Positions 10,897-58,947 of a DNA stretch of 64,000 nt are shown piece after piece; position 1 is the first letter of the stretch, and each line of letters starts with the position of its first letter. Source of the stretch: Candidatus Kryptobacter tengchongensis (GTDB taxonomy: Bacteria > Bacteroidota > Ignavibacteria > Kryptoniales > Kryptoniaceae). The stretch covers positions 62,001 to 126,000 of the forward strand of contig FAON01000013.1 of assembly GCA_001485605.1 (NCBI GenBank). The letters are read 5' to 3'. The translations under genes and the position numbers were made by a program. A model generated the notes under the pieces. That model was not told where the DNA came from. It saw nothing but the letters and a program-made list of their open reading frames with translations, and searched no databases.

Positions 10897-11114
10897 GGAT
10901 GTGCAAAATTATTTCACCAAGTAAAGGATATTAATCCAGAAAAACAGTCACAATTCAATTGTCTCAGAAATCACTAAATTAAACGATCTGACAACTTCCT
11001 TACTCTTTTTTCGTGAGAGTCTCTTCAAAAGTTTAGCGGAATAAATGTAATTAAGGTCTATTTTTGAATTTAAGTTAAAAATTTTGCTGTTAAATGTCAA
11101 GATGAAGCCATCAA

Positions 11115-12521
11115 TTATAAAATATATCTGCTCAGATCTCTATCTTTGACAATTGGTGAAAGTTTTTCCTGAACAAATTCTTTTGTGATCAAAATTTTCT
11201 GACCTTTTAACTTCGGTGCATCAAATAAAATATCTTCAAGCAGCGATGTCATAACGGTTTGAAGCCTTCTTGCGCCGATGTTTTCAAGTTGTTCATTCAC
11301 CTGTGCAGCATAATGAGCAATCTCTCTTATGGCGTCATCTGTAAATTCAAGTTCAACGCCTTCGGTTTCAAGTAATGCTTTATACTGCTTTATAAGAGCG
11401 TTTTCAGGTAAAGTCAAAATCTTAACGAAATCTTCTTCGGTCAATGGATTAAGTTCAACCCTTATTGGAAATCGCCCCTGGAGCTCAGGGATTAAGTCAC
11501 TTGGTTTTGCCACGTGAAAAGCACCTGCTGCGATGAAAAGTATATGATCTGTTTTTACAATTCCATATTTTGTCATTACATTTGAACCCTCAATTATAGG
11601 AAGCAGATCTCTTTGAACCCCTTCTCTTGAAACATCTGGTCCAACAGTATAGCCACCGGGATTTGCTATTTTATCAATTTCATCAATAAATACAATTCCA
11701 AGATTTTCAACTCTTTTTATAGCTTCTTTTATTACTGATTCCATGTCAATTAATTTTTGAGCCTCCTCCTGAATTAAATAATTTCTCGCCTCGGCTATCG
11801 TCATTCTCCTCTTTTTGTAGCGCTTTGGTATAACTGTCTCAATAAAATCCTGCATTGTCATAGCGAGATCATCCACAGGGATGGGACCGAAAACCTGCAT
11901 CCCGGGCAATGATTGGGTTGAGACCTCAATTTCTATCGTCCTTGAATCAAGCTTTCCTTCCTGCAACTGCCTTTTTAATTTTTCCCTCGTCCTCATCATT
12001 TCGTCATTTTCATATTCATCAAAAGATCCTTCGTCCTCATCAGGTTTTCTTCTTTTCTTCCTTGGCAAGAGTATATCAAGCAATCTCTCTTCGGCGAGTT
12101 CTTTTGCACGGTCTTTAATTTCTTCCATTTTTTCCATTTTGACCATATTCACCGCAATATCAACGAGTTCTCTTATCATTGATTCCACATCTCTTCCAAC
12201 ATATCCAACTTCGGTGAACTTTGATGCTTCAACTTTAACAAATGGTGCATTCGCAAGCTTTGCAAGTCTGCGCGCAATTTCAGTTTTTCCAACCCCTGTT
12301 GGACCGATTAAAATTATATTGTTTGGTGTGATTTCCTCCCGCAGATCAGGCGGAACCTGTTGTCTTCTCCACCTGTTGCGAAGCGCAATTGCAACAGCTC
12401 TTTTCGCTTGATCTTGACCTATGATATACTTATCAAGTTCTTTAACTATCTCCTCAGGCGTCAAATCTTTTAGATCTTTCCGATGTTTTATTTCAATTTC
12501 GTTTTGATCCTTATTTCTCAT
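11115..12521 (-). CDS. hslU: ATP-dependent protease ATPase subunit HslU (ClpY)
   Basis: 468 residues. This AAA+ unfoldase feeds proteins to the HslV peptidase in the cytoplasm. The Walker A motif GPTGVGKT is at 73-80 and Walker B VFIDEIDK at 277-284. The HslU-specific intermediate domain lies between them, here with a charged stretch ([10 protein letters not shown] near 156-165). A C-terminal hydrophobic tail ending in RYIL would dock into HslV. An N-terminal [20 protein letters not shown] opening is typical. hslU follows hslV by 29 nt, so the genes are co-transcribed. Confidence 0.97.
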
Positions 12522-29930: not shown

Positions 29931-31781
29931 TTATCTTACAAGCACCATCTTCTTTGTAGCAACAAAATCCCCAGCCTCTAATCTATAGAAATAAATGCCA
30001 CTTGAAACATATTCACCGTAATCATTTTTACCATTCCATTCCACTCTATATAAACCAGCCTCATACTCTTGTCCATCAATCAATGTTTTAACCACTTTTC
30101 CAGTTAAATCATAAATTACAAGTTTGACATTAACTCTCTTCGGAATCGCAAACTCAATCGTTGTCGTTGGGTTAAACGGATTTGGATAATTTTGAAATAC
30201 TTCAAATTTAGAAACAATGCTTGCAATTTGCTCAACTTTCGTCGGCCACCACATTCTGAAATAAAACCACAAAGAATCAGCCAATTGAATATCAGTTGCC
30301 TCCGTCCAATCAGTTAAATTTGCATCCGTTGGTACACCAAAGTTTGGTATGTTACCTGTTGGATTCCTATGACAGCTTGCAGCGCAAGAATTTAACATGC
30401 CCTTCGTTGGAGTTGTAACCGTTCTATAATCAAGTGTTTTCTTTGGTGAAATCACTTCAAATGTATGACTATGTATGTCATAAGCCTTAGCTGTTGTCGC
30501 TGTTTTCGCCATATGGCATTTTGAACACCTGCTTGTGCCCCCAGTATTGTTTCTATTCTCAGGGTCATAGGAATGATGCGTATGCCTGCTTACAACAGAG
30601 GCAATTGTATCTCTGTTAGCAACTGGATCCATAATCATAGCCCTTGTTAAACCAGCAAATGGACCATATCCAGCGTGGCAAGCTAAACAAAGCGTGTTAT
30701 CATTATTCTTTGTTTTTATCCAAATATAGTTCCCACTTTGATCACGAACATACAACGAATCAACTACTTGATGTGGATTGCTTGTAACTTTGTGGGGATT
30801 GTGACATTCAAAACAAGTAACTTTATGATATGGATTTGAATAATGCTTTGACTTTAAAAGATCATTATATTGCTGGTGATGCTGCCTTGAAGTATAATTA
30901 TCTGGCCAAAGCCCTGGATTATGAATTATATAAAGTCCAAGGCTATCCCCAGGAATGTAACCTTTATTGTTTGTTTCATCCCATGGGTATTCATGAGTAC
31001 GATTATTACTTGAGCCTCTGAAATGGCATTGACCACAAACTTCAAGCTGCCTTTCATATGATAAATTTTTAGGATTGATTATTTTTGTTTTGTCCCCGGT
31101 AGAAGCATGATCAGACCCTGGACCATGGCAACTTTCACACCCAATTATCATATCATTGATACTATTGTTATTAGCCCACTTTGCAATCCAAAATGTATCG
31201 GCTTGAGAGCTTACATATTTTGTTATATTAAGTCCAGTTACATGACAACCCGCACAATTTTTATCATATGACTTAGCTCTAAAAGAATTAGTTTTTGTTG
31301 ACTTTAATGTTCCGTCACTATTAAACCAATTACCTGGGTTATAACTAGTCCAGTTGCCCGTTGAATTATCAAGATATCCCTTCAAATTCCATTGAATTGG
31401 GAGCATATAATAACTGCTATCAATTTTTACAAGATATCTTTGCTTCCACCCAAAACCATACACATAGGCAATTTCATACTCAACTGAGTCACCAGAGCTT
31501 GGCACAAGCTTCGCATACCATTTTGAACCATCAGTTCTTAAACGAACCAAAGCATTACCATAAGAAGAGCCCATTGAAACAGTTTGAGTAAAGTCCCCAC
31601 GAACAGTCTCGGAAGTGGGCAACAGATGAATCTTTGCATGAAGCGTTTGCTTATAATCCTTTGCGACTGGCTTAACATAAGCATGACAAGTTAAACACCT
31701 ATCAGTTCCAACATAAGATTGTGAAAAAACTACCCCATAAATTATAGTTAATAAGCCCAAAATTAAAAGCACCCTATTCAT
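29931..31781 (-). CDS. Multiheme c-type cytochrome with T9SS sorting domain
   Basis: 616 residues. After a signal peptide come seven canonical CXXCH haem sites with histidines at 33, 180, 219, 253, 327, 369 and 423. There is also one CX3CH site (Cys466-Cys470-His471, CAASCH). The last 85 residues are a T9SS domain (QNYPNPFNPTTTIEF, IYDLTGKVVKTLI, SSGIYFYRLEAG, final KKMVLVR). Haems would be attached in the periplasm and the protein then moved to the surface, where it could handle electrons or a nitrogen or sulfur substrate. No enzyme active site is recognised. It is monocistronic with a strong terminator; GAGAGG precedes the ATG. Confidence 0.93.
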   Translation of the reverse strand: MNRVLLILGLLTIIYGVVFSQSYVGTDRCLTCHAYVKPVAKDYKQTLHAKIHLLPTSETVRGDFTQTVSMGSSYGNALVRLRTDGSKWYAKLVPSSGDSVEYEIAYVYGFGWKQRYLVKIDSSYYMLPIQWNLKGYLDNSTGNWTSYNPGNWFNSDGTLKSTKTNSFRAKSYDKNCAGCHVTGLNITKYVSSQADTFWIAKWANNNSINDMIIGCESCHGPGSDHASTGDKTKIINPKNLSYERQLEVCGQCHFRGSSNNRTHEYPWDETNNKGYIPGDSLGLYIIHNPGLWPDNYTSRQHHQQYNDLLKSKHYSNPYHKVTCFECHNPHKVTSNPHQVVDSLYVRDQSGNYIWIKTKNNDNTLCLACHAGYGPFAGLTRAMIMDPVANRDTIASVVSRHTHHSYDPENRNNTGGTSRCSKCHMAKTATTAKAYDIHSHTFEVISPKKTLDYRTVTTPTKGMLNSCAASCHRNPTGNIPNFGVPTDANLTDWTEATDIQLADSLWFYFRMWWPTKVEQIASIVSKFEVFQNYPNPFNPTTTIEFAIPKRVNVKLVIYDLTGKVVKTLIDGQEYEAGLYRVEWNGKNDYGEYVSSGIYFYRLEAGDFVATKKMVLVR

Positions 31782-38347: not shown

Positions 38348-38350
38348 AAA

Positions 38351-38371
38351 TGGGCAGGATAAACCTGCCCA
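38351..38371. terminator. Bidirectional terminator between convergent genes
   Basis: An 8-bp stem, TGGGCAGG/CCTGCCCA, with loop ATAAA. On the minus strand it is followed by TTTTTATTTTAT; on the plus strand by CCATTTTATT. It serves the T9SS cohesin-like gene and the caspase-barrel gene, whose stop codon is 9 nt away. Confidence 0.85.
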
Positions 38372-38379
38372 CCATTTTA

Positions 38380-39963
38380 TTAAAAGCCATACCTTGCGCC
38401 AATCAGAAATTGCAAAGATGATACTTTCCATTCACTATCTTTAGCAACTTTTGTTAAGCCAAGGTCATACCTTGCTTCAATGAAAATTTTAAAGCCACCT
38501 AATTTAAAATCATACCCTGCGCCAATAGGTAAAGCAAATCTCGTTTTCGTATCTTCAATTTTATCCTCTTCTTCAATAGTTCCACCCTCTATAAAATTTC
38601 CATAAATATCTCTGACTATATAACCCGATGTAAACTTTATCTTTTTATCTAATACAAAACCAAGCGCCAAGCCTGCTCCAAAGTAGAAACCACCTGATTT
38701 CGCTTTCATCATAGGATTTAATGTCAAATATGAAAGTTTTGCATCCATATTCACATCTGGACCAAATTCAATTATAAAATTATCTGATAGACTTGAAAAC
38801 GGCTTTATTTTAAAACTTCCACTTTTTTCATCATAAAATAAATTCAAAGTAAGTGTAAATTTAGGATCAACTTGATATTCAAATCCAAATCCAACAACAC
38901 CGCCAGACCCTTCTAATTTTTCAAAGGTGAGCTCATCATTTTTAATTGAATGATTATTGCTATTAAATCCAATAAAACCGTAGCCCCAATACCTTGATAA
39001 CTTCGTCTGAGGTGTGAACACCTTTTCCTTTTCTTTTTCCTTTTCGTCTCGGACAATTCTTCTTGGTTGAGGTTTTGATTCTTCTTTTGGTTGGACAACT
39101 ATTACCTGTGGTTGCTTTTGCTCAATTGCAACTTCCCTTGACTTAATAAATATAAATTCACCATCCTCATCGCCCGGTAATTTCCCATACTGTGGATTTT
39201 GCGGAGCTCTAAACCTGACATTTTTAGACACATAATCTGCAAGTTCACTTGAAGTTATAATTCCATCACGATTAACATCTGCATCGCCATCAAGCCCACG
39301 CATAAAGTAAAAAGCAAAAATACTAACACCTTGATCTGCAAGGTCCATAACCTGCTCATCTTTACCCCCAGCAGTTATCGCAACCCTTGCTTTTTTAGCC
39401 GTAAACCGCGCAATTGCTTCAGACTTTGAACTGAAAAATTCTTCCCTGAGTCCAATTCCTCGTGTAAAAATTGTCCCACTATAACAAGCATCCATTGCAA
39501 AGAAAACATGCTTTGCTGGTATAGCCTCTTGAAACTCGTGAAGTTGGTCTGTTGAAATAGCTGTGCTTGCAAACTTTTCCATAACGCCATCAACAGGCAT
39601 GATATAACCTTTGTCTTTTCCAGCCATCGTCCTTGTAACGCCATGACCTGCAAAGTAAACAAAAACCCTGTCGTCTTTTCCAACCCTCTTTGAATCCATT
39701 AATTTGTCAAACGCTTTTAATATATTTTCCCTCGTCGCTTGATCATCGTAAAGTTCAATCACATTTTCTGGTTCAAATCCAAACTCACGAACAAGTTTTT
39801 CACGGATTAACTTTGCGCTTTTTGCTGCCCCGCTTAACATAGGCAAACTTTGATATTCGTTAATTCCAATGATCAAAGCCCAGCTTTTTCTATATCCCTC
39901 TTGCTGGGCAAAGCAAAAAGATAAAACCAAAGTAATAATGCTAAAAATAAAAAGTTTTCTCAT
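38380..39963 (-). CDS. Caspase-like (C14) protease fused to outer-membrane beta-barrel
   Basis: 527 residues from the ATG at 39963. The longer frame begins at a GTG (39975) lying inside the AGGAGG ribosome site, so it is rejected; the short start gives a clean signal peptide (MRKLFIFSIITLVLSFCFAQ). The caspase domain has His107 (YFAGHGV) and Cys160 (MDACYSG). An EF-hand-like loop (DADVNRDGIITSSE, about 227-240) follows, then a charged Lys/Glu/Pro linker (about 270-315), then a beta-barrel-like half (about 320-527) ending in QFLIGARYGF with a terminal Phe. It should be in the outer membrane with the protease probably periplasmic. It is the last gene of the LPP20 cluster. Confidence 0.85.
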   Translation of the reverse strand: MRKLFIFSIITLVLSFCFAQQEGYRKSWALIIGINEYQSLPMLSGAAKSAKLIREKLVREFGFEPENVIELYDDQATRENILKAFDKLMDSKRVGKDDRVFVYFAGHGVTRTMAGKDKGYIMPVDGVMEKFASTAISTDQLHEFQEAIPAKHVFFAMDACYSGTIFTRGIGLREEFFSSKSEAIARFTAKKARVAITAGGKDEQVMDLADQGVSIFAFYFMRGLDGDADVNRDGIITSSELADYVSKNVRFRAPQNPQYGKLPGDEDGEFIFIKSREVAIEQKQPQVIVVQPKEESKPQPRRIVRDEKEKEKEKVFTPQTKLSRYWGYGFIGFNSNNHSIKNDELTFEKLEGSGGVVGFGFEYQVDPKFTLTLNLFYDEKSGSFKIKPFSSLSDNFIIEFGPDVNMDAKLSYLTLNPMMKAKSGGFYFGAGLALGFVLDKKIKFTSGYIVRDIYGNFIEGGTIEEEDKIEDTKTRFALPIGAGYDFKLGGFKIFIEARYDLGLTKVAKDSEWKVSSLQFLIGARYGF

Positions 39964-39974
39964 GGCTTTATGCA

Positions 39975-39980
39975 CCTCCT
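39975..39980 (-). promoter_or_regulatory. Shine-Dalgarno site deciding the caspase-barrel start
   Basis: AGGAGG on the minus strand overlaps the first base of the upstream GTG and lies 11 nt before the ATG at 39963. It therefore supports the ATG. Confidence 0.65.
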
Positions 39981-39996
39981 TTTATTTTTATTATTT

Positions 39997-41958
39997 TTAT
40001 TTTTTCAAAGTTGTGATTACAACACTACTTTCAGCATAATCTTCAGATTTCAACCCAAGTCCACGGACATTTGACAAGTATACACTCGGGTTTTCAATTA
40101 AGATCAAACCTGAGCGTTCTTTTCCTTTAGGTAAAGGAAACGGATTTTCACTTGCAAACGCTTTCAATATCTCCCTTCCAAATGGTGGTTCAATCACAAA
40201 ATTGCCAGGAACTTTGTAAATTTTATTCGCTTCTATTTTGTTATTCCACTCCTTCTTATGTGGAAAAACAAGAATTGCATTGCCCTGTGCATCATAATAA
40301 ACAAGTTGAACATAACAATCTCTATTTGATCTAACAAAAATTTCAATTGTATCACCCTCATAATAGATTCCATCAGGTCTATCAACCCAAAGCTCAACCT
40401 TTAACTCTTCACCCTTCCTTTCAGATTTTATCAGTTCATCATCTACCTTGGGATTATAATTTTCAGGTGCAAGTGGGATATTTGGCAAAAATGACTTCGG
40501 GATGTTAACATTTGCTGTAGATAATACAATCTTCTTCATGGCATCCGTTGCTTTAAGATTTAAGTCAATTACATCTCCGCTTTCCCAATAGCTTCCTGTT
40601 ATTACAACCTTGCTTCCCGCGAATCTTCCAAAACTTTCAGGGGCTCCTAATTCATCTGAAGAATATCCAAGATTGGCGTATTTCACACTCACCATTTTAA
40701 TTTGCTCATCACTTATCAATGAAAATTTTGTATATCGCTCTATAGCTAATTCAATTTTCTGCTTCAAATATGAAGCCATAGGTCCAGGAAGTTTGTCTTG
40801 ATAGTAAATTCGTAAAATGGAAATCGTCTCAAGCTCCGGTGGAATTTTTGAAACAAGATTTAAGACAAGATCACGAATTTTATCATCCAATGTCGTAACT
40901 GTTTTTTTCAAAGTGAAAATTGTTTCACTTTCATTCCTTCGCAAAAACTCATTCCATTCGGCATATTCATCATACCGACCAAAGATATTGAATTCCGAAA
41001 GGTCAATTTTTGCAAATATAACATAGTAATTTTCTTGATGAGGTTTTAACTCAAATATCTCACATTTTACAATTCCAGAATTATCCGATATGCCAACTTC
41101 AGAAATTTTTCCAGCGCCAGTTTGAAATGAGAACTTAAATTTAATTCCGCTGACAGGATAAGTTTTCTCGCCATCAATGTAAACAATTTTAAGCAGAAGC
41201 GGTTTTAAAGGCTGATTAAATTTTATCTCCTGCTCTTCACCTTCTATTTTTTCAACTTTTACCCTTGAGAATAAGTCCTGCGCAATTGATTTAATCTCTG
41301 AAATTAACAATGCATCGTTAGCTTTCCATTCGTTATCAATGCTTGCCTCGGCAAGTGGTCTTGTGATAAATCTGTAAAGTGGAAGTAAGTCGTTATAGAG
41401 CGGTATGTTTTTATAAGCCTCAACGAGACCCAACATCGCTTGATAAATATTCCCTTTTAAGATGTTGTTTTTTGCAAACTCAAGGTTTTTAGAATATGCG
41501 TTATAATATTGATTAAGTTTGTCTTTAAGTTCTTTCCCAGCGGTTTCCCTTTCAAGGACGGCAAGTGAATAGTAAATGTCATCGTCGTCATCAAAATAAG
41601 TTTCAACAATTTTTAATCCCCCAATTTTAAGTTCACTTGTGACTTGAAGCTCAGCTGATGCACGTTCAGCGGATTCAACTTTTTTGCCCGATATAATTTC
41701 CAATTGTTCAACAACTGTTTTTGATTCAACAGTAACTCTTATTTGCTTTACGATATCTGCAAATGCTTCATTGTTTGCCTTTTGAATATCTTCAATTTTA
41801 TTTTTTGTCTTTTTTGCTGCACCAACTCCAAGAATGTAAAGTCGCTCGGGATACCTTGGGTGTTTCTTTGTTGTTATCCAAGCTGGTTTTTCACCTGCGT
41901 AAATTGAAGTTGAGAAAATAAACAAAATCGCAATCAGAATAATCCTTTTCATACTCAT
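39997..41958 (-). CDS. LPP20-domain protein with C-terminal DUF4384
   Basis: 653 residues, signal peptide to about 21. The N-terminal LPP20-type domain (about 25-145) starts PAWITTKKHPRYPERLYILGVGAA and ends DDDDIYYSLAVLERETA. A helical region, a transthyretin-like module (YPVSGIKFKFSFQTGAG) and a CsgG/FlgO-like region with KVVITGSYWESGDVIDL follow. The last 130 residues are DUF4384-like (RPDGIYYEGDTIEIFVRSNR, YDAQGNAILVFPHK). It is a paralogue of the 447-residue LPP20 protein 5 kb away. It overlaps the CsgG-like gene by ATGA; GGAGG precedes the start. A periplasmic or outer-membrane structural role is inferred. Confidence 0.78.
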   Translation of the reverse strand: MSMKRIILIAILFIFSTSIYAGEKPAWITTKKHPRYPERLYILGVGAAKKTKNKIEDIQKANNEAFADIVKQIRVTVESKTVVEQLEIISGKKVESAERASAELQVTSELKIGGLKIVETYFDDDDDIYYSLAVLERETAGKELKDKLNQYYNAYSKNLEFAKNNILKGNIYQAMLGLVEAYKNIPLYNDLLPLYRFITRPLAEASIDNEWKANDALLISEIKSIAQDLFSRVKVEKIEGEEQEIKFNQPLKPLLLKIVYIDGEKTYPVSGIKFKFSFQTGAGKISEVGISDNSGIVKCEIFELKPHQENYYVIFAKIDLSEFNIFGRYDEYAEWNEFLRRNESETIFTLKKTVTTLDDKIRDLVLNLVSKIPPELETISILRIYYQDKLPGPMASYLKQKIELAIERYTKFSLISDEQIKMVSVKYANLGYSSDELGAPESFGRFAGSKVVITGSYWESGDVIDLNLKATDAMKKIVLSTANVNIPKSFLPNIPLAPENYNPKVDDELIKSERKGEELKVELWVDRPDGIYYEGDTIEIFVRSNRDCYVQLVYYDAQGNAILVFPHKKEWNNKIEANKIYKVPGNFVIEPPFGREILKAFASENPFPLPKGKERSGLILIENPSVYLSNVRGLGLKSEDYAESSVVITTLKK

Positions 41959-42860
41959 TTCACCTCCACTGTAAATGTTAATTTACCAACATTGTGATAA
42001 AGATCCGTAGCAACAATTTCAACTGTGTTTCTTCCTTTTTTAAGTTTTATCTTTTTATAAAAATTCATCCCAGCAAGCCCAAGTTTAACATCAGCTGCTT
42101 CACCGTTTACCTTGATTGAAATTATACCGCTTTCATCAGTAACAATTCCACCAAGTTCAAAATCACGATTGCTGACCCTCAAATACCCATTATTTTTCAC
42201 AGATGGGTAATAAAGCTCAATTTTCGGAGGATCACTGTCTTTAAACGGGTCTTTTGCTATGTTAAACTCCTTATAAAGATCCCCAAATATATCCTCTTCT
42301 TCGGTCTCTTCCTCCACAACTTCTTCAACCTTTTGTTTCTTTTCCTGTTCTTGTTTTCCTTCTTGTTCAACTTTCAAAGCGACATGTTTCTCTGAGGGAT
42401 TTTCAGCAAGTTTATAAGCAAGTTGTTCCATAACCTTCAACAATCCAGATATTTTACCCTCATAATCAGCGCTTGCAGTTTGAACTATTTCTGATGTTTC
42501 AACGCTTATCCTTCTAACATTTACAGTGTAAAGTTCTTCAACTTTACCAATATCACCAGTTATAATCTCCTTTACCCCGAGAATTTTTCCAATCTGTACA
42601 TTATCCCCAACTCCCTCTGCAATTTCGCTCTGTTGCAAATTTTGCTCCATTAATATCTCTTTGATCTTCTCCCTTTCAAGCACATTAAATTTACCCGTTG
42701 AGTTCAATGCGACTCTAAACCTTGAAACGAGAACATCAATTTGAGCAGGTTCAAATCCCTTAGCGTCAAACTTTAAAACGGCGACATTTATTTTTTTATC
42801 CTGAGAAAAAAGCAACGATATAGCTAAAATTAAACTCAGAAAGAGTTTAAAGATTTTCAT
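41955..42860 (-). CDS. CsgG/FlgO-like protein with C-terminal Ig-like domain
   Basis: 301 residues with a signal peptide (ending LLFSQ). The region 24-150 matches the CsgG/LpoB/FlgO-type fold: NVAVLKFDAKGFEPAQIDVLVSRFR, FNVLEREKIKEILMEQNLQQ and GKILGVKEIITGDIGKVEE. A Lys/Glu-rich linker (about 163-195) leads to an Ig-like module (about 210-301) with SDPPKIELYYP, FELGGIVTDESGIISIKVNG and LKKGRNTVEIVATD. No lipobox cysteine is seen, unlike CsgG itself. It shares 4-nt overlaps with both neighbours. Members of this fold assemble rings or regulate envelope enzymes. Confidence 0.8.
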   Translation of the reverse strand: MKIFKLFLSLILAISLLFSQDKKINVAVLKFDAKGFEPAQIDVLVSRFRVALNSTGKFNVLEREKIKEILMEQNLQQSEIAEGVGDNVQIGKILGVKEIITGDIGKVEELYTVNVRRISVETSEIVQTASADYEGKISGLLKVMEQLAYKLAENPSEKHVALKVEQEGKQEQEKKQKVEEVVEEETEEEDIFGDLYKEFNIAKDPFKDSDPPKIELYYPSVKNNGYLRVSNRDFELGGIVTDESGIISIKVNGEAADVKLGLAGMNFYKKIKLKKGRNTVEIVATDLYHNVGKLTFTVEVK

Positions 42861-43834
42861 TTTAATTCCCCCTTACTTTTGTTTAGTTTTTCAAGTTCTT
42901 TATCAAGTTGATTTAATGCCTCATTTAGAATCTCTTCTATAGGTTTATCCTGGTTTGTGAGTTTTTCAGGTGGGTTTTGTTTTATCGCGTTTATTGCGAC
43001 TTGTTTTATTTGATAGATCAAGTTTTTCTTATACATTCGTGCAAGGGCATAATTTGCACCTGTTTTCGGATCAATCCAGAAGCCAACTATCTGTGAGCCT
43101 GTTAATTTTGCGTTTGAAATCGTTCTTGATATCCTTCGCGAATAGCTTAATTCAAAAGCTTTATTCCCCTCTGACCAATTATCAAGTAATGTCTGAATTT
43201 TCAAATTTATAATTCTTGAAAGCTCGGACCGTGCATTTTGAATTGCTCGTTTTCTTGTCTCAGCTGGATCAAAATATCTATCAGACGCGCCAACAGCGTA
43301 AATCGCAACATCAGAAACAGGAATTTTATAAATCCATTTAGGTTGTTTTCTTGAAGAAACACTTAACCCTGCAAGTGCGGGATCGTAAACAAATTCATCG
43401 GGAATTGAATAAACTGTATCAGTTGAAATAGCTTTTACAGGGATACGAAGCAAAACATATAAAATTTTTGATTTCGGATCATGCCATTGTGAAACAAGTT
43501 CATAATTTGACTTTATAAGATTAAAAAGCGTCGTATCAATTTCTTCTTCATATTCTTCCTCAAAATGTGAAAGTCCAGAAAAAAGACTTCCTGTGTCCTC
43601 AAACCAATTTATTTGCTTTACCTTAACACCAACTTCAATTGTTCTGGCGAGTTCAAAGATAGCGTCTTCAATTGCTTTTGCTTTTGTAGTTTCTGGGTAA
43701 AAATACGGAGACGACGCACCAACAGCATAAAGATATTCCTTTGACTGAGGAAGCACAGAAAGCCACGAGGGTTGCTGACCGCAAACTTTTGAAAATGTTA
43801 ACAAAGTCAAAATTGTAAAAACAAGTTCCTTCAT
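42857..43834 (-). CDS. Tandem LPP20-domain envelope protein
   Basis: 325 residues with a signal peptide. Two LPP20-type repeats are plain: PSWLSVLPQSKEYLYAVGAS (about 22) with a matching end ILYVLLRIPVKA, and PKWIYKIPVSDVAIYAVGAS (about 165) with SRRISRTISNAKLTGSQIVGF and NYALARMYKKNLI. A helical C-terminal tail ends EALNQLDKELEKLNKSKGELK. The second repeat closely resembles the 190-residue lipoprotein two genes upstream, which has ATLAGSQIVEFYYDKD and ALKLLDKELEKWDLSK. Overlaps of 4 nt with both neighbouring genes place it in the operon. The LPP20 domain also occurs in flagellar FlgP; no flagellar gene is near. Confidence 0.8.
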   Translation of the reverse strand: MKELVFTILTLLTFSKVCGQQPSWLSVLPQSKEYLYAVGASSPYFYPETTKAKAIEDAIFELARTIEVGVKVKQINWFEDTGSLFSGLSHFEEEYEEEIDTTLFNLIKSNYELVSQWHDPKSKILYVLLRIPVKAISTDTVYSIPDEFVYDPALAGLSVSSRKQPKWIYKIPVSDVAIYAVGASDRYFDPAETRKRAIQNARSELSRIINLKIQTLLDNWSEGNKAFELSYSRRISRTISNAKLTGSQIVGFWIDPKTGANYALARMYKKNLIYQIKQVAINAIKQNPPEKLTNQDKPIEEILNEALNQLDKELEKLNKSKGELK

Positions 43835-44202
43835 TTTATCGTTTTAAGGGAAAGAATATGTTTAGTAACTCCAAGCCCAATTAGAATTATGATTATGCTA
43901 ACAAGTATATTTGAAACTGCGAAAAATGCCGTATATCCCATGACAAGCCACATGACTGAAAGTGATATAATTTTACCACGCAGTGTTATAGCCCTTTGTT
44001 CACGATAGTTTTTTATGTAAGAGCCAAAAACTTTATGATTTAAAAGCCAATTATAAAATTTTTTTGAACTCCTTGCAAAGCAAGCAGCAGCCAAAAGAAG
44101 AAAAGGCGTTGTCGGAAGAACTGGAAGAAATGCGCCAAGAATCCCAAGACCCACAAAAATAAATCCAAGACCAATCAAAGCAAATCTATATAGTTCACTC
44201 AT
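43831..44202 (-). CDS. YbaN/DUF454 family inner-membrane protein
   Basis: 123 residues from the ATG at 44202; a TTG at 44232 would add 10 residues. It has the DUF454 pattern: ALIGLGFIFVGLGILGAFLPVLPTTPFLLLAAACFARSS, then FYNWLLNHKVFGSYIKNYRE and two further hydrophobic segments. Function is unknown. Its location inside the envelope cluster, overlapping the tandem LPP20 gene by 4 nt, suggests co-expression, though YbaN-like genes are widespread and the link may be incidental. Confidence 0.85.
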   Translation of the reverse strand: MSELYRFALIGLGFIFVGLGILGAFLPVLPTTPFLLLAAACFARSSKKFYNWLLNHKVFGSYIKNYREQRAITLRGKIISLSVMWLVMGYTAFFAVSNILVSIIIILIGLGVTKHILSLKTIK

Positions 44203-44340
44203 CGCTTCAAAACTTAACCATTTTTCTTTCAATTTATTATAAACACATCAAAAATCAAAAATACTCTCCCCAGACTAAAAGTTTTCAAAAACTGCTTACA
44301 GGTTTTAAATTTTAGGTTTGTAGTTTTTCAAATAACTAAA

Positions 44341-44366
44341 AAAGGTCGGGGGTTACCCCGACCTTT
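44341..44366 (-). terminator. Terminator after the LPP20 lipoprotein gene
   Basis: A perfect 11-bp stem, AAAGGTCGGGG/CCCCGACCTTT, with a GTTA loop. On the minus strand it is followed by TTTTAGTTATTTG. It divides the cluster into an upstream unit (lipoprotein, long LPP20, DUF6175-like, barrel) and a downstream unit beginning at YbaN. Confidence 0.8.
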
Positions 44367-44377
44367 CACAAAAATTT

Positions 44378-44950
44378 TCACTTGCTCAAGTCCCACTTTT
44401 CAAGTTCTTTGTCAAGAAGTTTAAGTGCCTCATCCGCTTTCATTTCAACAAATGCCGTCTTTTTCTGACGTTGGGCTTCGGTCATTGAGCGCATTATTTC
44501 ATTCACAATGTCATTCTTTCTTAAAACAGCAAGTGCATAATATATCTTGTTGTCTTTATCATAATAAAATTCCACAATTTGAGAACCTGCAAGCGTTGCC
44601 TGGCTTACTGACCTGCTCACGCTTCTTGAGAATTCTTCAGATGTTATCGTCCCCTGGTTGTTTACAAATTCCTGATGCTCCTGCATAAAATTATCAAGCA
44701 AGCTTTTAACCTTTATTTGAATAATTCTGCCAAGTTCCTGTCTTGCAGCATCCGCTGCTTTATTTCTCGCAAGCACAGGATTTGCTCCAACATTTGCTGC
44801 GCCAACTCCATAAATTGCATCAACAGCTGTTGGTGGATTATTTACCCAAGCTGGGGCTGGAGATTCAGGAACTGCAACTCGTTCCTTACCCCCACAACCG
44901 ACCATAAATAATACAACCGCAAAAACTAACACTAAAGAAATATACCGCAT
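44378..44950 (-). CDS. LPP20-family lipoprotein
   Basis: 190 residues from the ATG at 44950. The longer frame to 45007 would put a basic stretch before the signal peptide; GGAGG at 44959-44963 is spaced 8 nt from the preferred ATG. The signal ends in a lipobox, FMVGCGG, so it should be a lipoprotein. The LPP20 domain has PAWVNNPPTAVDAIYGVGAAN, a helix ARNKAADAARQELGRIIQIKV and ATLAGSQIVEFYYDKDNKIYYALAVLRK (read in parts). It closely resembles the second repeat of the tandem LPP20 protein. An outer-membrane location is likely. Confidence 0.87.
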   Translation of the reverse strand: MRYISLVLVFAVVLFMVGCGGKERVAVPESPAPAWVNNPPTAVDAIYGVGAANVGANPVLARNKAADAARQELGRIIQIKVKSLLDNFMQEHQEFVNNQGTITSEEFSRSVSRSVSQATLAGSQIVEFYYDKDNKIYYALAVLRKNDIVNEIMRSMTEAQRQKKTAFVEMKADEALKLLDKELEKWDLSK

Positions 44951-44958
44951 GATTTTTA

Positions 44959-44963
44959 CCTCC
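44959..44963 (-). promoter_or_regulatory. Shine-Dalgarno site deciding the lipoprotein start
   Basis: GGAGG on the minus strand, 8 nt before the ATG at 44950. It lies inside the longer reading frame, which it argues against. Confidence 0.7.
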
Positions 44964-45003
44964 TTTTTGATTTTGTTTTTAAAAAAGATAATTTTTGTTT
45001 TTT

Positions 45004-46347
45004 TCATTCTTCAATCTTCGCATTTGATAACATCTCAACAAGCTCTTTGTTTGAAAATTTCATTCCTTTTAACGCCTTCTCGTAAGCATCTCTTTCACTT
45101 TTCCCTACAGCTCTTGACTTAACGCTCATGCTCCCAATTATTTGACCACTTTCTAAATCCTTAAGAAATAAATTCAACTCTGCTTCAACAGTGTAAAGCA
45201 TACCACCAACCCCTTGAACTGACGAGACAACTCTTGAACCTATATCACCACCCACAACAAATCTTGCTTCATCTTCAACCTTGTATCCATTTTTTTCAAT
45301 TGCTTGAGTTAATTTTTTCATAACATCAAATATCAACTTATCTTCTTTTGCGCCCTTTAAAGACACGGTAACACTTGGGGTCATTTCTGCACTTGTCGTA
45401 TAAGTAAATTCAGCCTTAATTTGTGAAATTATCCGCGCATATTCACTTGGTAACCCAGGAATTGAAAAACTTGCAATTATCTGGTTTGCCCTTTTACCCA
45501 TTGCGATCGCTTTGATACTCGCGATGCCCTGCTCATCCGTTGTGGTTCTTTCTATTACCTCGCCAGTTTTATATGTAAAAACCACATTTGCATTTACAAT
45601 CGGTACCAAAACATTTCCTTGATAAAACACTTTAACAACAAGCTCTTCTGGAAGCTCTTCACCAATTCTACCAACCTGATTATCTCCTGAAACCTTCTCA
45701 ATTTTAATCCTTGAAATTAAATCTCTTATCTCAGATTCAATTCCGCTTGCTGTTAAATCAACATCTGGTTTATAGGGAATTTTTGAAAGGGCGTTATAAA
45801 AAACCTGTTTTGAATAAATATCATAAATTTTTTGCTGTGCATCCTTTAAATTCTGAATTGCCTGTAAAACTTTTCCCGCACCTATAAATGATTGAGCATC
45901 TTCATAAAGCTTCTTAATTTGCATCCATGCATTCTCAATCTCATCTTCAAGTGAAGCCAAATACCGTTGCTTATCAAGAACCGCCAAAGCATACCATGTT
46001 TTAGCTTTTTTATCAAAATCCATTTCAACTATCTCACAACCTGTCAAAATCTCATCAACTATCGTTTTTGACTTTTGTTGAAATTCAGAGTAATAATCTG
46101 ACTCTTTGTTTATGATTCTTTCTTTCTCCAAACTCGTAATTTCTGATTGAACTTGAACTTTTATCTGTGAAGCGACATCTGCAATTGCATTCTGCTTTGC
46201 TGTCTCTCTCGCATCTTCACCAACAGCTGCACCAATTCCAAGGATATAAAATTCTTTTGGATATTTTGGATGTGTCTGGGTTTTATACCAGTTCGGTTGG
46301 GAAAAGACATAAGATGAAAATAAAATTGTCAATAAAAGAAATCGCAT
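45004..46347 (-). CDS. LPP20-domain envelope protein with FlgT-like layout
   Basis: 447 residues with a signal peptide (ending YVFSQ). The LPP20 region starts PNWYKTQTHPKYPKEFYILGIGAA and ends KAKTWYALAVLDKQR, then a helical segment (ALEDEIEN-like, YEDAQSFIGAGKVLQAIQNL). A transthyretin-like module (VPIVNANVVFTYKTGEVIE) and a C-terminal domain with FVVGGDIGSRVVSS and LYTVEAELNLFLKDL complete it. It is the clear paralogue of the DUF4384 protein gene, sharing the HPKYP/HPRYP opening and the same order of parts up to the C-terminus. It has no DUF4384. Position between the lipoprotein and the DUF6175-like gene suggests one complex. Confidence 0.78.
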   Translation of the reverse strand: MRFLLLTILFSSYVFSQPNWYKTQTHPKYPKEFYILGIGAAVGEDARETAKQNAIADVASQIKVQVQSEITSLEKERIINKESDYYSEFQQKSKTIVDEILTGCEIVEMDFDKKAKTWYALAVLDKQRYLASLEDEIENAWMQIKKLYEDAQSFIGAGKVLQAIQNLKDAQQKIYDIYSKQVFYNALSKIPYKPDVDLTASGIESEIRDLISRIKIEKVSGDNQVGRIGEELPEELVVKVFYQGNVLVPIVNANVVFTYKTGEVIERTTTDEQGIASIKAIAMGKRANQIIASFSIPGLPSEYARIISQIKAEFTYTTSAEMTPSVTVSLKGAKEDKLIFDVMKKLTQAIEKNGYKVEDEARFVVGGDIGSRVVSSVQGVGGMLYTVEAELNLFLKDLESGQIIGSMSVKSRAVGKSERDAYEKALKGMKFSNKELVEMLSNAKIEE

Positions 46348-46369
46348 AATTGTAACACCTGTTTTAATT

Positions 46370-47605
46370 TTACTCCGTTATCTCAAGAATTAAAAGTTTT
46401 CTATTTGCATTGATTCTTTTAACTTTAACAGGAACAGCGGTTTCAATTTGTTTTCTTATATCCCTGAATAAAGCAAGTGGAGAGTTGTACTTTTTAGGAT
46501 CAACCCATACAATATAATCAATTGTTTGATCGGTTACGACATTTTGTTTCGTTCTATTGCACAATTTCTTTAATGCTGATTCAGTAGCCATTAAAATTTC
46601 GTCATGCGTGTCCTCATCAAAATTCCCAGTGATTCTGAAAAGAAGTTTAAACTGCAAACCTCTTGTTAAGTCATCTTTCCAGTAAGCCATGATCCTGCTC
46701 AAGACTTTGTCAATTGCATCGTTCATTGCTTCTTCAACAACCGCTTCTTCAGGAACTGCGTATTCGCCACTATAACCTGTTTCAGTTCCAAGCAATCTTG
46801 CCGTCGTTGTCTCATAAGCTCTTGCTGCTACAATTGCTTTTCTATACTCAGTGGAGCCAATATATCTTTTTTCAACTTTAACATTATAAGTTATATAAAC
46901 ATCGCTTCCAATCGCAAGCGCAAGTTGATATGCGTAATCTTCCTCCACCCCCTTAAGACCAGCCTGCGCTTGTGCAAGCTCACTCAAAGTTTCCATTTGC
47001 TCAGGAACTTGGACATCGTATTTTCTCGCCGTAAGATATGACTCAATTACTTCAGCTCCCTTCTTCAACAATCTATCGCTTCTGAGCAAATCAACTGGGC
47101 TAACTCCCTTCGGTGTTTCTGGAACAACCATTATAAATGGCAAACCGATTGCCTCAGTTATCTCTTCTTTCGGTTTAATTACATTTCTCGCAACAAGATC
47201 ATCGGTTAAAAGTTTTTTGTTAACACGATAATATTTTGTGATCTTAACACGCCCATCGGCAAGCTTAACTCTTGATTCATATTCCGTTGATTCAAAAGTT
47301 ATATATTTTGCTATATTTCGCTCATCAAATATCTCATCTTGAATTGACTCAAAAGCTTTCCTTTCATCTGGCGTTTGCAAAATTGGGTCAGTTGCTCCAA
47401 TTAGAACATAGTAAATTGCTGCCCTTCTCCCATCAATCTCAGCAACTTTATTATCTTTCCCAATCCCGGAAGCCTTTATAGTAACCTCGGTGGGTGAATA
47501 ACTCTCAATAAATGTTGCCTCCCTTGAAACAGGTAGGTTCTTTTGAGAATAACCAGCCGAGAAACCTAAGAGCACAAGTAAAAACCCATAAATTAGCTTT
47601 TTCAT
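46370..47605 (-). CDS. Secreted envelope protein, DUF6175-like
   Basis: 411 residues with a signal peptide (ending GYSQ). It has the layout ATFIESYSPTEVTIKASGIGKD, EIDGRRAAIYYVLIGATDP, VARNVIKPKEEITEAIGLPFIMVVPE, then QLALAIGSDVYITYNVKV and TTTARLLGTETGYSGEY. I recall proteins of this pattern as DUF6175, but I could not check. The ALAIGSDVYITYNV segment resembles the CsgG/FlgO nucleotide-binding-like fold. It lies 23 nt upstream of the long LPP20 gene. Function is unknown. Confidence 0.7.
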   Translation of the reverse strand: MKKLIYGFLLVLLGFSAGYSQKNLPVSREATFIESYSPTEVTIKASGIGKDNKVAEIDGRRAAIYYVLIGATDPILQTPDERKAFESIQDEIFDERNIAKYITFESTEYESRVKLADGRVKITKYYRVNKKLLTDDLVARNVIKPKEEITEAIGLPFIMVVPETPKGVSPVDLLRSDRLLKKGAEVIESYLTARKYDVQVPEQMETLSELAQAQAGLKGVEEDYAYQLALAIGSDVYITYNVKVEKRYIGSTEYRKAIVAARAYETTTARLLGTETGYSGEYAVPEEAVVEEAMNDAIDKVLSRIMAYWKDDLTRGLQFKLLFRITGNFDEDTHDEILMATESALKKLCNRTKQNVVTDQTIDYIVWVDPKKYNSPLALFRDIRKQIETAVPVKVKRINANRKLLILEITE

Positions 47606-47678
47606 ATCTTATGCTTTTTTATTTTCTTTTTAAAATTAATTTAAACCAGATTTCCAAATTGTGCTTAAAATCACACCT

Positions 47679-49313
47679 TCACCAACCAACAGCACCTTTG
47701 ATAGCTGCAATTGGGTCAAATCCAAGTTTGGGTAATGAATAATTAAAGTAAAGCGAAAACATAACTCCAGAGTGATTTCCAGCTAAACCTGGAACAGTTC
47801 CTGACCAATTTTCAGAAGACCATTCTTCACTTTCAGAGAAAATTCTATATCCTAAATTAAAGCCAAAGTTAATATCGGGCGTTACAACATATTCAATTCC
47901 AAGTCCAATCCCAAATCCAAATCCAGAATGTATAAGTTTGCTCTCATCTTTTGAAAACCTTATACTTTCAAAAATCAATTCAGCTTTTCCAGTTGCAGCG
48001 AATCTTTTATAATAAAATTTTTTTATCAGGATACCATTTAAACCCAAAATTCCAACATCTGGTTTTTCTCCAAAGATATTCCTCATTGCTTGAAGGTTTT
48101 CTGCATCTCCACCCCCAAGAAAAACTCCAACTCCAGCCCAGAGCTGAGAAACATTGATATTCCTTCCGAAATTATAAATCAATTCAGCATGAATTGAATA
48201 AGCAATCATTTTTTCTGTATTCTGTTCACCAAACCAGCTGGTGTATTTTACCGTAAATGGATTATTTATCAATTTAACAACAACATCAATTGGTAATCTT
48301 GGTCTTTCAGAAACATAAACGCCAGGTTCAATTCCACCACCAATTATAATTTGAGCCCTTGAAAAAGCTCTTGGATTAGTTGTATTGTCTTCAACCTTAA
48401 TTACCCTTACAAAACCCACTTTTTTCTGAGCGACGCTACCACTTGGGTCTTCTTGCAATTCCACGAGATCAAAGCCATCATCAATTTTTATCCCTTCTCT
48501 TTTTCCCATTGGAAAGCTCACAGCATTTGAATAAACCTCCATTACTTGTGAACCCAACCGAAACTCTGGGATGTCTCTTGTTGCAACTTGAATATCGCGA
48601 GCAAGAGCTATAACAGCGGTTCTAAATGCGTATTCTTTATAATTAACTCTTTCACCTTCGTGTTTAAGCGTTTTTCCTATTCCAGCAGTCCCGATACCCT
48701 TTGTCTCTTTTCTAACAATAAGTTTCAAATCCCCTTCGCCATTTTCCTTGTAAATGACCCGATACCAAATAGCTCCTGCATTTAACTCCGTTGTGACAAT
48801 TTGACTTAAATTATCAACATAAACATTATATTTGCTTATAACTGGAACATATATAAACGCTGAGTTCATAATTTTCATTGCTTGTTCAGCGGTTATTCCA
48901 AGTGCTTTGGCTTTTGTTGCAATAAAACTATTTCTCTGCTCTTCTGTTAACAAATTTTGAGCTCTTATCTCCTTTTCAATGTCAAGAATCTCAATAATCT
49001 TTGGGACGAATTTCTCTTTCAAAATTTCAACAATTTCATCAAGTGAGATATTGGAACCCCGTGACTCAACTTCTTCTCTAAAATCTTCAAGAAGCTCAGC
49101 TGGTATTGGGTTATAATCAAATCTTGGCATTTCAATATATTCACGAAGCTTTTTAATGATATACTCTGCTTCCTTTTGTTCAATTTTTATAGATGGGTCT
49201 GAAACAATTAAAACATTGGCATAAGAAATTGATTTTCTTTCATACTTTAAATCTTGAGCCATTAACCCCAAATTCAAAAAAAGAGATAGGAGAATAAGTA
49301 AACCCATTTTCAT
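47679..49313 (-). CDS. Outer-membrane beta-barrel protein of the LPP20 cluster
   Basis: 544 residues from the ATG at 49313; a GTG at 49322 precedes it in frame and another ATG lies at 49307. A signal peptide (ending NLGLMAQ) is followed by a soluble helical region (about 30-190), a mixed region with FRTAVIALARDIQVATRDIP, and a C-terminal barrel-like half with strands such as GFGFGIGLGIEYV and DINFGFNLGYRI. The family is not recognised. It is the first gene of the cluster by direction of transcription, starting about 126 bp from tRNA-Glu. It may be the outer-membrane anchor of the system. Confidence 0.65.
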   Translation of the reverse strand: MKMGLLILLSLFLNLGLMAQDLKYERKSISYANVLIVSDPSIKIEQKEAEYIIKKLREYIEMPRFDYNPIPAELLEDFREEVESRGSNISLDEIVEILKEKFVPKIIEILDIEKEIRAQNLLTEEQRNSFIATKAKALGITAEQAMKIMNSAFIYVPVISKYNVYVDNLSQIVTTELNAGAIWYRVIYKENGEGDLKLIVRKETKGIGTAGIGKTLKHEGERVNYKEYAFRTAVIALARDIQVATRDIPEFRLGSQVMEVYSNAVSFPMGKREGIKIDDGFDLVELQEDPSGSVAQKKVGFVRVIKVEDNTTNPRAFSRAQIIIGGGIEPGVYVSERPRLPIDVVVKLINNPFTVKYTSWFGEQNTEKMIAYSIHAELIYNFGRNINVSQLWAGVGVFLGGGDAENLQAMRNIFGEKPDVGILGLNGILIKKFYYKRFAATGKAELIFESIRFSKDESKLIHSGFGFGIGLGIEYVVTPDINFGFNLGYRIFSESEEWSSENWSGTVPGLAGNHSGVMFSLYFNYSLPKLGFDPIAAIKGAVGW

Positions 49314-49448
49314 TTTCAGCACCCTACTGAATTTGTTTGCAAAACTTCAGTTTAATATAAGTAATCTTTCACTATTTGTCAAGCGTTAAAGGGGAAAATG
49401 TTTTAAGAGCGGTTTTCAAACTATCAGGTAGGTTATTAATAGTTGAAG

Positions 49449-49522
49449 TAGCGCGTGCGGGATTCGAACCCGCGATCTCCGCCTTGAGAGGGCGGTGTCC
49501 TAGACCACTAGACGAACGCGCC
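49449..49522 (-). tRNA. tRNA-Glu (CTC)
   Basis: 74 nt. The acceptor GGCGCGT/ACGCGCT has a G-U first pair, with discriminator A. The anticodon arm CCGCC-CTCTCAA-GGCGG gives anticodon CTC. The T arm is GCGGG-TTCGAAT-CCCGC. CCA is not encoded. It lies 14 nt after tRNA-Gly and is probably processed from the same transcript. Confidence 0.96.
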
Positions 49523-49536
49523 ATTAAAATTTAAAG

Positions 49537-49609
49537 AGCGCGAGACGGGACTCGAACCCGCGACACCCAGCTTGGGAAGCTGGTGTTCTACCACCTGAAC
49601 TACTCGCGC
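49537..49609 (-). tRNA. tRNA-Gly (CCC)
   Basis: 73 nt. The acceptor is GCGCGAG/CTCGCGC with discriminator T. The anticodon arm CCAGC-TTCCCAA-GCTGG gives anticodon CCC, reading GGG. The T arm is GCGGG-TTCGAGT-CCCGT. CCA is not encoded. The flanking bases extend the acceptor stem by a few pairs. Confidence 0.96.
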
Positions 49610-57427: not shown

Positions 57428-58333
57428 TTATAATAACTTTTGCTGAAAAGATAAAGAAAAACTTTTTAACCTTCGTTCCGAAAGTTTCACATAATCTTTA
57501 TTGATTTCATAGCCAACATAATATCTATTTGTCATTACGCTTGCAATTGCGGTTGTTCCACTCCCCATAAAAGGGTCAAGGACAACTTCCCCTTCATAAG
57601 TGTAAAGTTGAATTAAACGATAAGGTAGTTCAACAGGAAAAGGCGCTGGATGTCCAACTTTTGTTGCCAACTCTGCTGGAAAATTCCAAAGGCTTTTTGT
57701 AAACTCAAGAAATTCTTCCCTTGTGATGGTGCTTTTTCTTTTGTGTGGGTTTTCACGAGTAAAAGTGTCTTTTGAAAAGACAAGTATATATTCGTGCTGG
57801 TCCCTAAGAGTTGGGTTCCTTGCCGATAACCAACTTCCCCATGCAGTTGAAGGACTACCTCCACCACTTTTGTTCCATATTATTTCACCTCTCATTAAAA
57901 ATCCAAGTTCAAGCATGTCTTCAATTATAAAAGCATGTAAGGGCAAATATGGCTTTCTTCCAAGATTTGCTATATTTATACAGGCACGACCACCAGGAAC
58001 CAAAACCCTTTTGACTTCTTTCCAGACTCTCTTTAAAAATTCCCTATATTCTTCAAGCGTTAAATCTTCATCGTATTCCTTCCCAACATTATAAGGCGGA
58101 GATGTTACCATAAGATGAACACTGCAATCAGGAAGTTCGCTCATATTCTCACTTGATTTGCAAAAAATTTTATTCAAATTTTCAGGTGAAATTTTATTCT
58201 CAACATAAATCGTTTTTTCCTCCTTGGGCAAACTTGCATATAATCTACTTGAATAAAATGGAGTTGAGTCATGATTGACTCTTCCACGAGTTCCAAATGA
58301 ACTTGTGATAGTTTTCCTTAATTTTCGCTCCAT
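57428..58333 (-). CDS. Type II DNA methyltransferase (TSPPY type)
   Basis: 301 residues from the ATG at 58333. A GTG at 58345 would add 4 residues, but AGGTGG at 58342-58347 is spaced 8 nt from the ATG. The catalytic motif TSPPYN (about 77-82) suggests N4-cytosine methylation, though N6-adenine cannot be excluded. The SAM-binding motif DPFMGSGTTA is near the C-terminus, so the order is catalytic before SAM motif (beta class). It overlaps the restriction nuclease gene by 16 nt, so it protects the chromosome from that nuclease. Confidence 0.9.
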   Translation of the reverse strand: MERKLRKTITSSFGTRGRVNHDSTPFYSSRLYASLPKEEKTIYVENKISPENLNKIFCKSSENMSELPDCSVHLMVTSPPYNVGKEYDEDLTLEEYREFLKRVWKEVKRVLVPGGRACINIANLGRKPYLPLHAFIIEDMLELGFLMRGEIIWNKSGGGSPSTAWGSWLSARNPTLRDQHEYILVFSKDTFTRENPHKRKSTITREEFLEFTKSLWNFPAELATKVGHPAPFPVELPYRLIQLYTYEGEVVLDPFMGSGTTAIASVMTNRYYVGYEINKDYVKLSERRLKSFSLSFQQKLL

Positions 58334-58947
58334 ATATCCAACCACCTTCTATATGGGTTTACTTTTATATTTTCAGATTTAAGCCACAAAATTTCTATTT
58401 TTTTAGTTCCGTTATGCTCTACAAGCATTCTAAGAGCTTTAGAAGAAAATTCAATCCCTCTTGGGTTAGTGCCTTTTTTAGGGATTTTCATATAAGCTTC
58501 CCTACCCAATTTTTTAAAGACTTCCTGTTGGACCTCCAAAGGGATAAAGTAAAAATATCCTATTCCGCCCCAATTAATCTGAATAAAAATCAAATGGGTA
58601 CGCGGTTCATAATTCTTAACAAACTCCTCAACTTTTCTCCAATCAACGGTCCAAATAATTTTTACACCGCTAAACCCTTTCCCTTCTTTCGTTTTTATTG
58701 AAATCAATTCATCAAAAACCCTAACATCTGCCTCAAAACTATTTATCCCAGGAGGAATGACATTTTCTTCACCAAATTTATACATTAAAAGTGCAATAAT
58801 GATTTGCTCTCTTATAGTGCCTACCTCCATTCCAACTTTACCGCCACGACTTATCTCCTGCTCAGCGATTTGAAACATAATTGGAAGTTTAACTTTTATC
58901 TTTTCAATAATCTCGTTATCCTCAAAAAGTTTGTAAATTTTGGTCAT
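58318..58947 (-). CDS. Type II restriction endonuclease, ThaI-like
   Basis: 209 residues. It looks like the ThaI family (ThaI of Thermoplasma acidophilum cuts CGCG): ISRGGKVGMEVGTIREQIIIALLMYKFGEE near 32-60, a PD-(D/E)xK-like core FEADVRVFDELISIKTK with Glu72, Asp74, Lys85 and Lys87, then GVKIIWTVDWRKVEEF and HLIFIQINWGGIGYFYFIPLEVQ. The family assignment comes from memory of the pattern. Recognition of CGCG is an inference. It is followed immediately by its methyltransferase gene. Confidence 0.8.
   Translation of the reverse strand: MTKIYKLFEDNEIIEKIKVKLPIMFQIAEQEISRGGKVGMEVGTIREQIIIALLMYKFGEENVIPPGINSFEADVRVFDELISIKTKEGKGFSGVKIIWTVDWRKVEEFVKNYEPRTHLIFIQINWGGIGYFYFIPLEVQQEVFKKLGREAYMKIPKKGTNPRGIEFSSKALRMLVEHNGTKKIEILWLKSENIKVNPYRRWLDIWSEN

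Follow-up and report, generated by a model that had tools for sequence, protein, structure and literature searches.

A nine-gene envelope cluster of Candidatus Kryptobacter tengchongensis that may encode an outer-membrane ring fold-related to the Vibrio flagellar H-ring

The window analysed here, a stretch of 64,000 nucleotides from Candidatus Kryptobacter tengchongensis (contig FAON01000013.1, positions 62,001 to 126,000; genome G000, 2.68 Mb), contains on its minus strand a cluster of nine genes, named g1 to g9, between window positions 38380 and 49322. We propose that the products of this locus build a periplasmic ring or disk, anchored in the outer membrane, that is fold-related to the flagellar H-ring of Vibrio (FlgO/FlgP/FlgT) and workable without a flagellum, a reading to which we give a probability of about one half and in which H-ring-like folds would occur in a new arrangement with no requirement for a flagellum. 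The ring itself we infer from the genes and from predicted folds. An initial annotation of the sequence had drawn the analogy with FlgO, FlgP and FlgT from LPP20 and CsgG domains alone; it is now strengthened, as the two proteins that had been left unnamed are those whose best structural matches are to FlgT:

47679..49322, minus strand: g9, signal peptide, predicted FlgT M+C-like periplasmic region (about residues 25-342) and predicted 8-stranded outer-membrane barrel (about residues 343-530) (AF2 model, Foldseek)
46370..47605, minus strand: g8, DUF6175 protein with a predicted FlgT N+M-like fold and an extra C-terminal alpha/beta domain (AF2 model, Foldseek, Pfam)

The structure models of g8 and g9 were each built from a shallow alignment of 7 sequences and reached pLDDT values of 85 and 80, respectively. 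In Foldseek searches of the PDB, the top matches of g8 were a chain of the Vibrio LPHT ring (8z5n, E 1.8e-8) and FlgT (3w1e, E 8.3e-8), followed by CsgG and PelC, and those of g9 were again 8z5n (E 8.7e-10) and FlgT 3w1e (E 1.6e-9), with FlgT aligned over residues 25-342. Chain 0 of 8z5n is presumably FlgT, given its length and its identical behaviour. The C-terminal 8-stranded barrel of the g9 model gave a Z-score of 17.4 to NspA/OprF, and a weak outer-membrane barrel match was also obtained with Pfam. According to VIA-align, the middle domain of g8 resembles PelC (Z 12.6) and CsgG (Z 10.9). The N, M and C folds of FlgT are all present in these two independent predictions, and the models indicate that g8 is FlgT N+M-like and g9 FlgT M+C-like.

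The g8 protein scored above the cut-off for Pfam DUF6175 (PF19672; 37.8 bits versus 23), as did 15 of 15 g8 members, and it is the most conserved member of the cluster, with 43-57% identity outside the genus; its closest named matches are from Ca. Kryptonium thompsonii, a Ca. Kryptonia bacterium and a Ca. Thermokryptus. The domain parsing is supported by families f10 and f46 (L015, L098 and L099), where two neighbouring genes, divided at the boundary between the N and M domains, take the place of g8. DUF6175, whose function is listed as unknown in Pfam, would thus be assigned a FlgT-like fold and, in g9, a constant partner, which is proposed to represent a new type of protein, in which a FlgT-like periplasmic region is borne by its own outer-membrane barrel. 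A second FlgT-barrel protein, paralogous to g9, is encoded on contig C6 of G000 (10211-11866; L161:10175-11902); it is found genus-wide and is distant from the other cluster genes.

The association of g8 with g9 was examined in a class sample of 294 genomes, in which 16 genomes contained g8 and 20 matched g9, two of the latter with marginal and partial matches. All 16 g8-carrying genomes contained g9, versus 2 of 278 genomes without g8 that contained a full g9 (Fisher p 1.6e-24, uncorrected for phylogeny); one of these two is a 78%-complete genus member and the other has g9 at a contig end. In family f31, which belongs to another class, g8 was present in 9/9 genomes; the idea from local synteny that g9 is absent from this family was ruled out by a direct search, which detected g9 in 9/9, in most cases a long way from g8. 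The pairwise distances of g7, g8 and g9 are correlated (r 0.86-0.88, 14 genomes), which fits joint inheritance, although shared phylogeny alone can produce the same. On the Electryoneota contig L058, g9-g8-g7-g6 are accompanied by a g4-like gene, the order being that seen here, and in G159 (same taxonomic order) g6-g4-g9-g8-g7 share one contig, with the CsgG and g2-like genes placed on a second. The LPP20 clusters of order-mates (L046, L048, L050 and L052) were not assigned to this system, as their 450-amino-acid lipoproteins failed to match g8 or g9 using HHalign, and no g8 relatives were found in the plasmid collection.

The g8/g9 core does not require a flagellum, because g8 is present where FlgI and, where tested, FliF are absent. 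FlgI was absent from 12 of 25 g8-carrying genomes (all nine of f31, as well as G293, G316 and G356), and FliF was absent from 7/7 of these FlgI-lacking genomes tested. The host genus is flagellated, with FliF in 7/7 genomes and FlgI in 6/6 carriers tested, and Ca. Kryptonia has been described as motile (PMC4737851). In G000, full flagellar loci are found on contigs other than that of the cluster, with FliF on C12 and FlgI on C11, and include FlgH, MotB, flagellin and FliK. The absence of flagellar genes, as stated in the initial annotation, therefore stands for the window genes scanned, which are a part of its open reading frames, but not as a property of the organism, since the host is flagellated from other contigs and the core is found more often in those genomes of the class that have a flagellum. 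Linkage of the cluster to flagellar genes, which had been named as evidence that would speak against a separate system, was seen in none of the carriers, and in the 13 flagellated g8-carrying genomes of the class sample the cluster was never on a contig with FliF or FlgI.

Several points weigh against the proposed ring. The whole-chain superposition of g8 and FlgT is loose, with a root-mean-square deviation of 16.8 A over 214 residues (VIA-align Z 10.2, residues 39-311), which we read as a differing domain arrangement, so that the likeness would rest on the domains. No Pfam FlgT family (FlgT_N, FlgT_M or FlgT_C) was matched by the 15 g8 and 16 g9 members scanned, and profile searches of PDB sequences with g8 and g9 gave no FlgT, which was found by structure comparison alone; because FlgT families are unmatched by sequence, the relation is placed at the level of the fold, not of the sequence. 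Middle-domain folds of the PelC/TolB/LptE kind are widespread in envelope systems, and a FlgT-like fold does not prove oligomerisation. Finally, g8 is commoner in the FliF-containing genomes of the class (13/114) than in those lacking FliF (3/180; p 8e-4, again uncorrected), and this enrichment may leave room for a flagellar role in flagellated hosts.

The same enrichment speaks for the best-surviving alternative, according to which the cluster is Kryptonium's equivalent of the flagellar H-ring, encoded apart from the flagellar loci and bracing the L/P ring and the outer membrane around the rotating rod. Although the flagellum encoded by this genome includes P- and L-rings, no LPP20 gene was found beyond the four of this cluster, and relatives of the cluster genes are absent from the two flagellar loci of G000 that were sampled. 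A precedent exists in H. pylori, in which an outer-membrane ring shields the membrane during rotation (PMC11756786). We consider this alternative unlikely, as g8 is lacking in 101 of 114 flagellated relatives and the cluster is off the FliF and FlgI contigs in 13/13 flagellated carriers; it is further weakened by the g8-carrying genomes, including all those of f31, that lack FlgI and, where tested, FliF.

The cluster is predicted to consist of two transcription units, TU1 (g9-g8-g7-g6) and TU2 (g5-g4-g3-g2-g1), a division that the initial annotation did not make and that is drawn because of the terminator between g6 and g5 and the promoter-like site before g9. In addition to g9 and g8, it contains the following features:

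49354..49382, minus strand: promoter-like site of TU1, TTGACA-17-TATATT, preceding g9 (consensus match; comparison)
45004..46347, minus strand: g7, secreted protein with an LPP20 (SHS2-type) domain, an immunoglobulin (Ig)/MG-like middle domain and a C-terminal domain (Pfam LPP20 55.9 bits; HHalign)
44378..45007, minus strand: g6, LPP20 lipoprotein with the lipobox Cys in ...FMVGCGG (Pfam LPP20 38.2 bits; sequence)
44340..44367, minus strand: predicted intrinsic terminator closing TU1, 12-bp stem and T run (comparative alignment)
43831..44232, minus strand: g5, DUF454 (YbaN-like) membrane protein, first gene of TU2 (Pfam 143.8 bits)
42857..43834, minus strand: g4, secreted protein with two LPP20 domains (Pfam, HHalign)
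41955..42860, minus strand: g3, short CsgG/FlgO-like alpha/beta domain, acidic linker and Ig-like domain; signal peptide I, no lipobox (Pfam CsgG 33.4 bits)
39997..41958, minus strand: g2, LPP20, Ig/MG-like, FlgO/CsgG-like and DUF4384 domains (Pfam, HHalign)
38380..39975, minus strand: g1, periplasmic caspase (C14; His111/Cys164 dyad), linker and C-terminal outer-membrane barrel (Pfam C14 66 bits, OMP_b-brl_2 43 bits)
38349..38373, no strand assigned: bidirectional terminator-like hairpin at the end of TU2 (sequence)

All nine minus-strand open reading frames initially annotated are present, with the end of the cluster corrected from 49313, an internal ATG three codons into g9, to 49322. Four 4-nt overlaps (g2/g3, g3/g4, g4/g5 and g6/g7) were counted where three had been reported, and all nine products appear to be secreted or membrane-bound instead of eight, the DUF454 protein g5 being a membrane protein. 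The unit boundaries are predicted from consensus matches with comparative support. The strong hairpin and T run between g6 and g5 (44367-44340) has a terminator as counterpart in 6/6 genus members compared, in four of which the stem is kept with compensatory changes, and an unrelated hairpin followed by a T run is found instead in the other two; the TTGACAA of the promoter-like site is invariant in 4 genus members. The order of the nine genes is retained in the other genus members wherever contigs suffice, some being cut by contig ends, and the conservation of the block across the genus is therefore far from chance. Two tRNA genes (Glu and Gly; window 49448-49609) lie directly upstream of the promoter-like site.

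Pfam and HHalign bore out the earlier count of at least five LPP20 domains in four proteins, with one domain each in g2, g6 and g7 and two in g4, all four proteins being over the curated Pfam cut-off. The five domains are mutually homologous when compared with HHalign using family alignments, and g2 and g7 also share a homologous middle domain. At the sequence level, 5/5 of the LPP20 domains carry a long insert at the SHS2 helix-strand 2 position. FlgP has a modified SHS2 fold common to Lpp20 and FlgT, and in FlgP and FlgT ring formation correlates with an insert, a beta-hairpin, between the SHS2 helix and strand 2 (PMC12222027).

In the mechanism that we propose, g9 would anchor the structure in the outer membrane through its 8-stranded barrel, with the predicted FlgT M/C-like domains probably facing the periplasm, as suggested by the signal peptide and their N-terminal position. 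The FlgT N/M-like g8, which co-occurs with g9, may assemble on it as a partner in direct contact. The LPP20 proteins g6 (the lipoprotein), g4 and g7 might polymerise through their SHS2 domains and inserts to form further rings or a mat beneath the outer membrane, after the model of FlgP in the Campylobacter basal disk. TU2 would add a second, separately distributed module, composed of the FlgO/CsgG-like protein, a DUF4384 adaptor in which LPP20 and FlgO-like domains are also present, and the caspase, which is tethered by its barrel and whose probable task is to trim envelope proteins, or turn them over, at the ring. In flagellated hosts the structure may also brace the flagellar exit, and in hosts without a flagellum it would instead have to serve another envelope-spanning structure or outer-membrane stability.

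The earlier view of a single nine-gene machine with a protease attached is not supported, as the caspase, DUF4384 and CsgG genes form a separate unit with a different distribution. TU1 genes are present in many genomes without the caspase module, TU1 and TU2 were seen together only in the genus, and the TU2 theme is recurrent and separable from TU1. The catalytic dyad of g1 is conserved in the genus, and relatives of its caspase are common in the class (44/149 genomes). Secreted caspase-DUF4384 pairs similar to g1 and g2 recur in class relatives; they differ from the present pair, in which g1 is barrel-tethered and g2 also has LPP20 and FlgO-like domains.

This recurrence bears on a further alternative, in which the locus would encode no ring but an envelope stress or quality-control system, with LPP20/CsgG-like (LpoB-like) proteins monitoring the outer membrane or the wall and the caspase degrading their targets. 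Secreted caspases adjoin DUF4384 or LPP20 genes at several unrelated loci of the class (L172, L173, L174, L177 and L178), and a CHASE2-guanylate cyclase and an M48/SH3 peptidase adjoin LPP20/DUF4384 or LPP20/caspase genes at L043 and L177, an arrangement that constitutes a recurrent envelope-signalling neighbourhood; in addition, a related CsgG protein gave a weak match to LpoB. However, this explanation applies to TU2, whereas TU1 often occurs without it and has a FlgT-type, not an enzymatic, architecture, which makes it rather improbable for the locus as a whole. Among five cluster proteins analysed by PADLOC, the caspase alone matched a defence model, and a defence role was set aside, as the cluster products are secreted and the genes stably conserved. 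Contig C1 of G000 (L164:9504-12056) encodes a further secreted caspase, to which four or more PEGA domains are fused.

The CsgG domain of g3, the DUF4384 domain of g2, the fusion of a caspase to a barrel in g1 and the barrel of g9 were all recovered by Pfam or by modelling, as initially described. The Pfam CsgG match of g3 is partial (profile positions 43-98 of 210) within a core of approximately 145 residues, to which residues 360-505 of g2 are similar (HHalign 93%, E 4e-7). No lipobox Cys is found in g3, whose signal peptide ends in LLFSQDKK, and no pore hairpins are evident in its sequence. A CsgG-type pore at this locus is unlikely because g3 is without a lipobox and its core is short, and the secretion machine once suggested is not borne out by this CsgG/TolB-N-like core. 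An export or transport complex, with an outer-membrane channel made of CsgG/PelC-like domains and anchored by g9, would agree with the PelC and CsgG resemblance of the g8 middle domain and with the Pfam match of g3, but is highly improbable given these features of g3, the small barrels of g9 (8 strands) and g1 (matching small OMP_b-brl families in Pfam), and two units without linked substrate, ATPase or exopolysaccharide export genes.

The proposed ring was compared to known systems. With the Vibrio H-ring (FlgT 3w1e; LPHT ring 8z5n) it shares the FlgT N/M-like (g8) and M/C-like (g9) folds, LPP20-type (FlgP) and FlgO/CsgG-like domains, and the outer-membrane location. In contrast to FlgT, the three domains are not in one chain but divided between two proteins, with the middle domain duplicated; g9 has its own barrel, LPP20 domains are multiplied, and the genes lie outside a flagellar locus, occur without flagella and adjoin a caspase/DUF4384 module. 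The Campylobacter basal disk (FlgP) and the H. pylori FapH ring likewise contain SHS2/LPP20-type proteins and lipoproteins and form outer-membrane-associated disks or rings (PMC12222027, PMC11756786); however, they are flagellum-bound, and neither a FlgT-barrel protein nor a DUF6175 protein is described there. The CsgG curli channel and the PelC exopolysaccharide lipoprotein ring share the TolB-N/CsgG/PelC-type middle domain with g8 (by structure) and with g3 and g2 (by sequence), whereas here pore hairpins are not evident, g3 has no lipobox and substrate genes are absent.

In the open-licence literature, nothing was found on DUF6175, on LPP20, DUF4384 and CsgG combined, or on such an LPP20/CsgG/DUF4384/caspase system. 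We put forward, as a tentative and somewhat speculative extension, that FCB-group bacteria possess a stand-alone, flagellum-independent outer-membrane ring machine made of FlgT-, FlgP- and FlgO-like parts with a FlgT-barrel anchor, and that the H-ring might represent a single specialised application of an envelope-ring toolkit that predates it. Flagellar outer rings (FlgO/P/T, FlgP disks) have so far been studied as parts of the motor; if these folds are encoded by a conserved gene set in bacteria in which no flagellum is detectable, the origin of the rings, and the question of what else they brace, would become directly testable.

Two further loci of the window lie outside the cluster. The gene at 29931-31781 encodes a multihaem cytochrome-like protein (CXXCH motifs, MtrC/MtrF-like match) with a type IX secretion C-terminal sorting domain, which is possibly an exported extracellular cytochrome. 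A restriction-modification pair at 57428-58947 consists of an N4/N6 DNA methylase and a ThaI-type restriction endonuclease (242 bits), the family of the latter being named after an archaeal enzyme.

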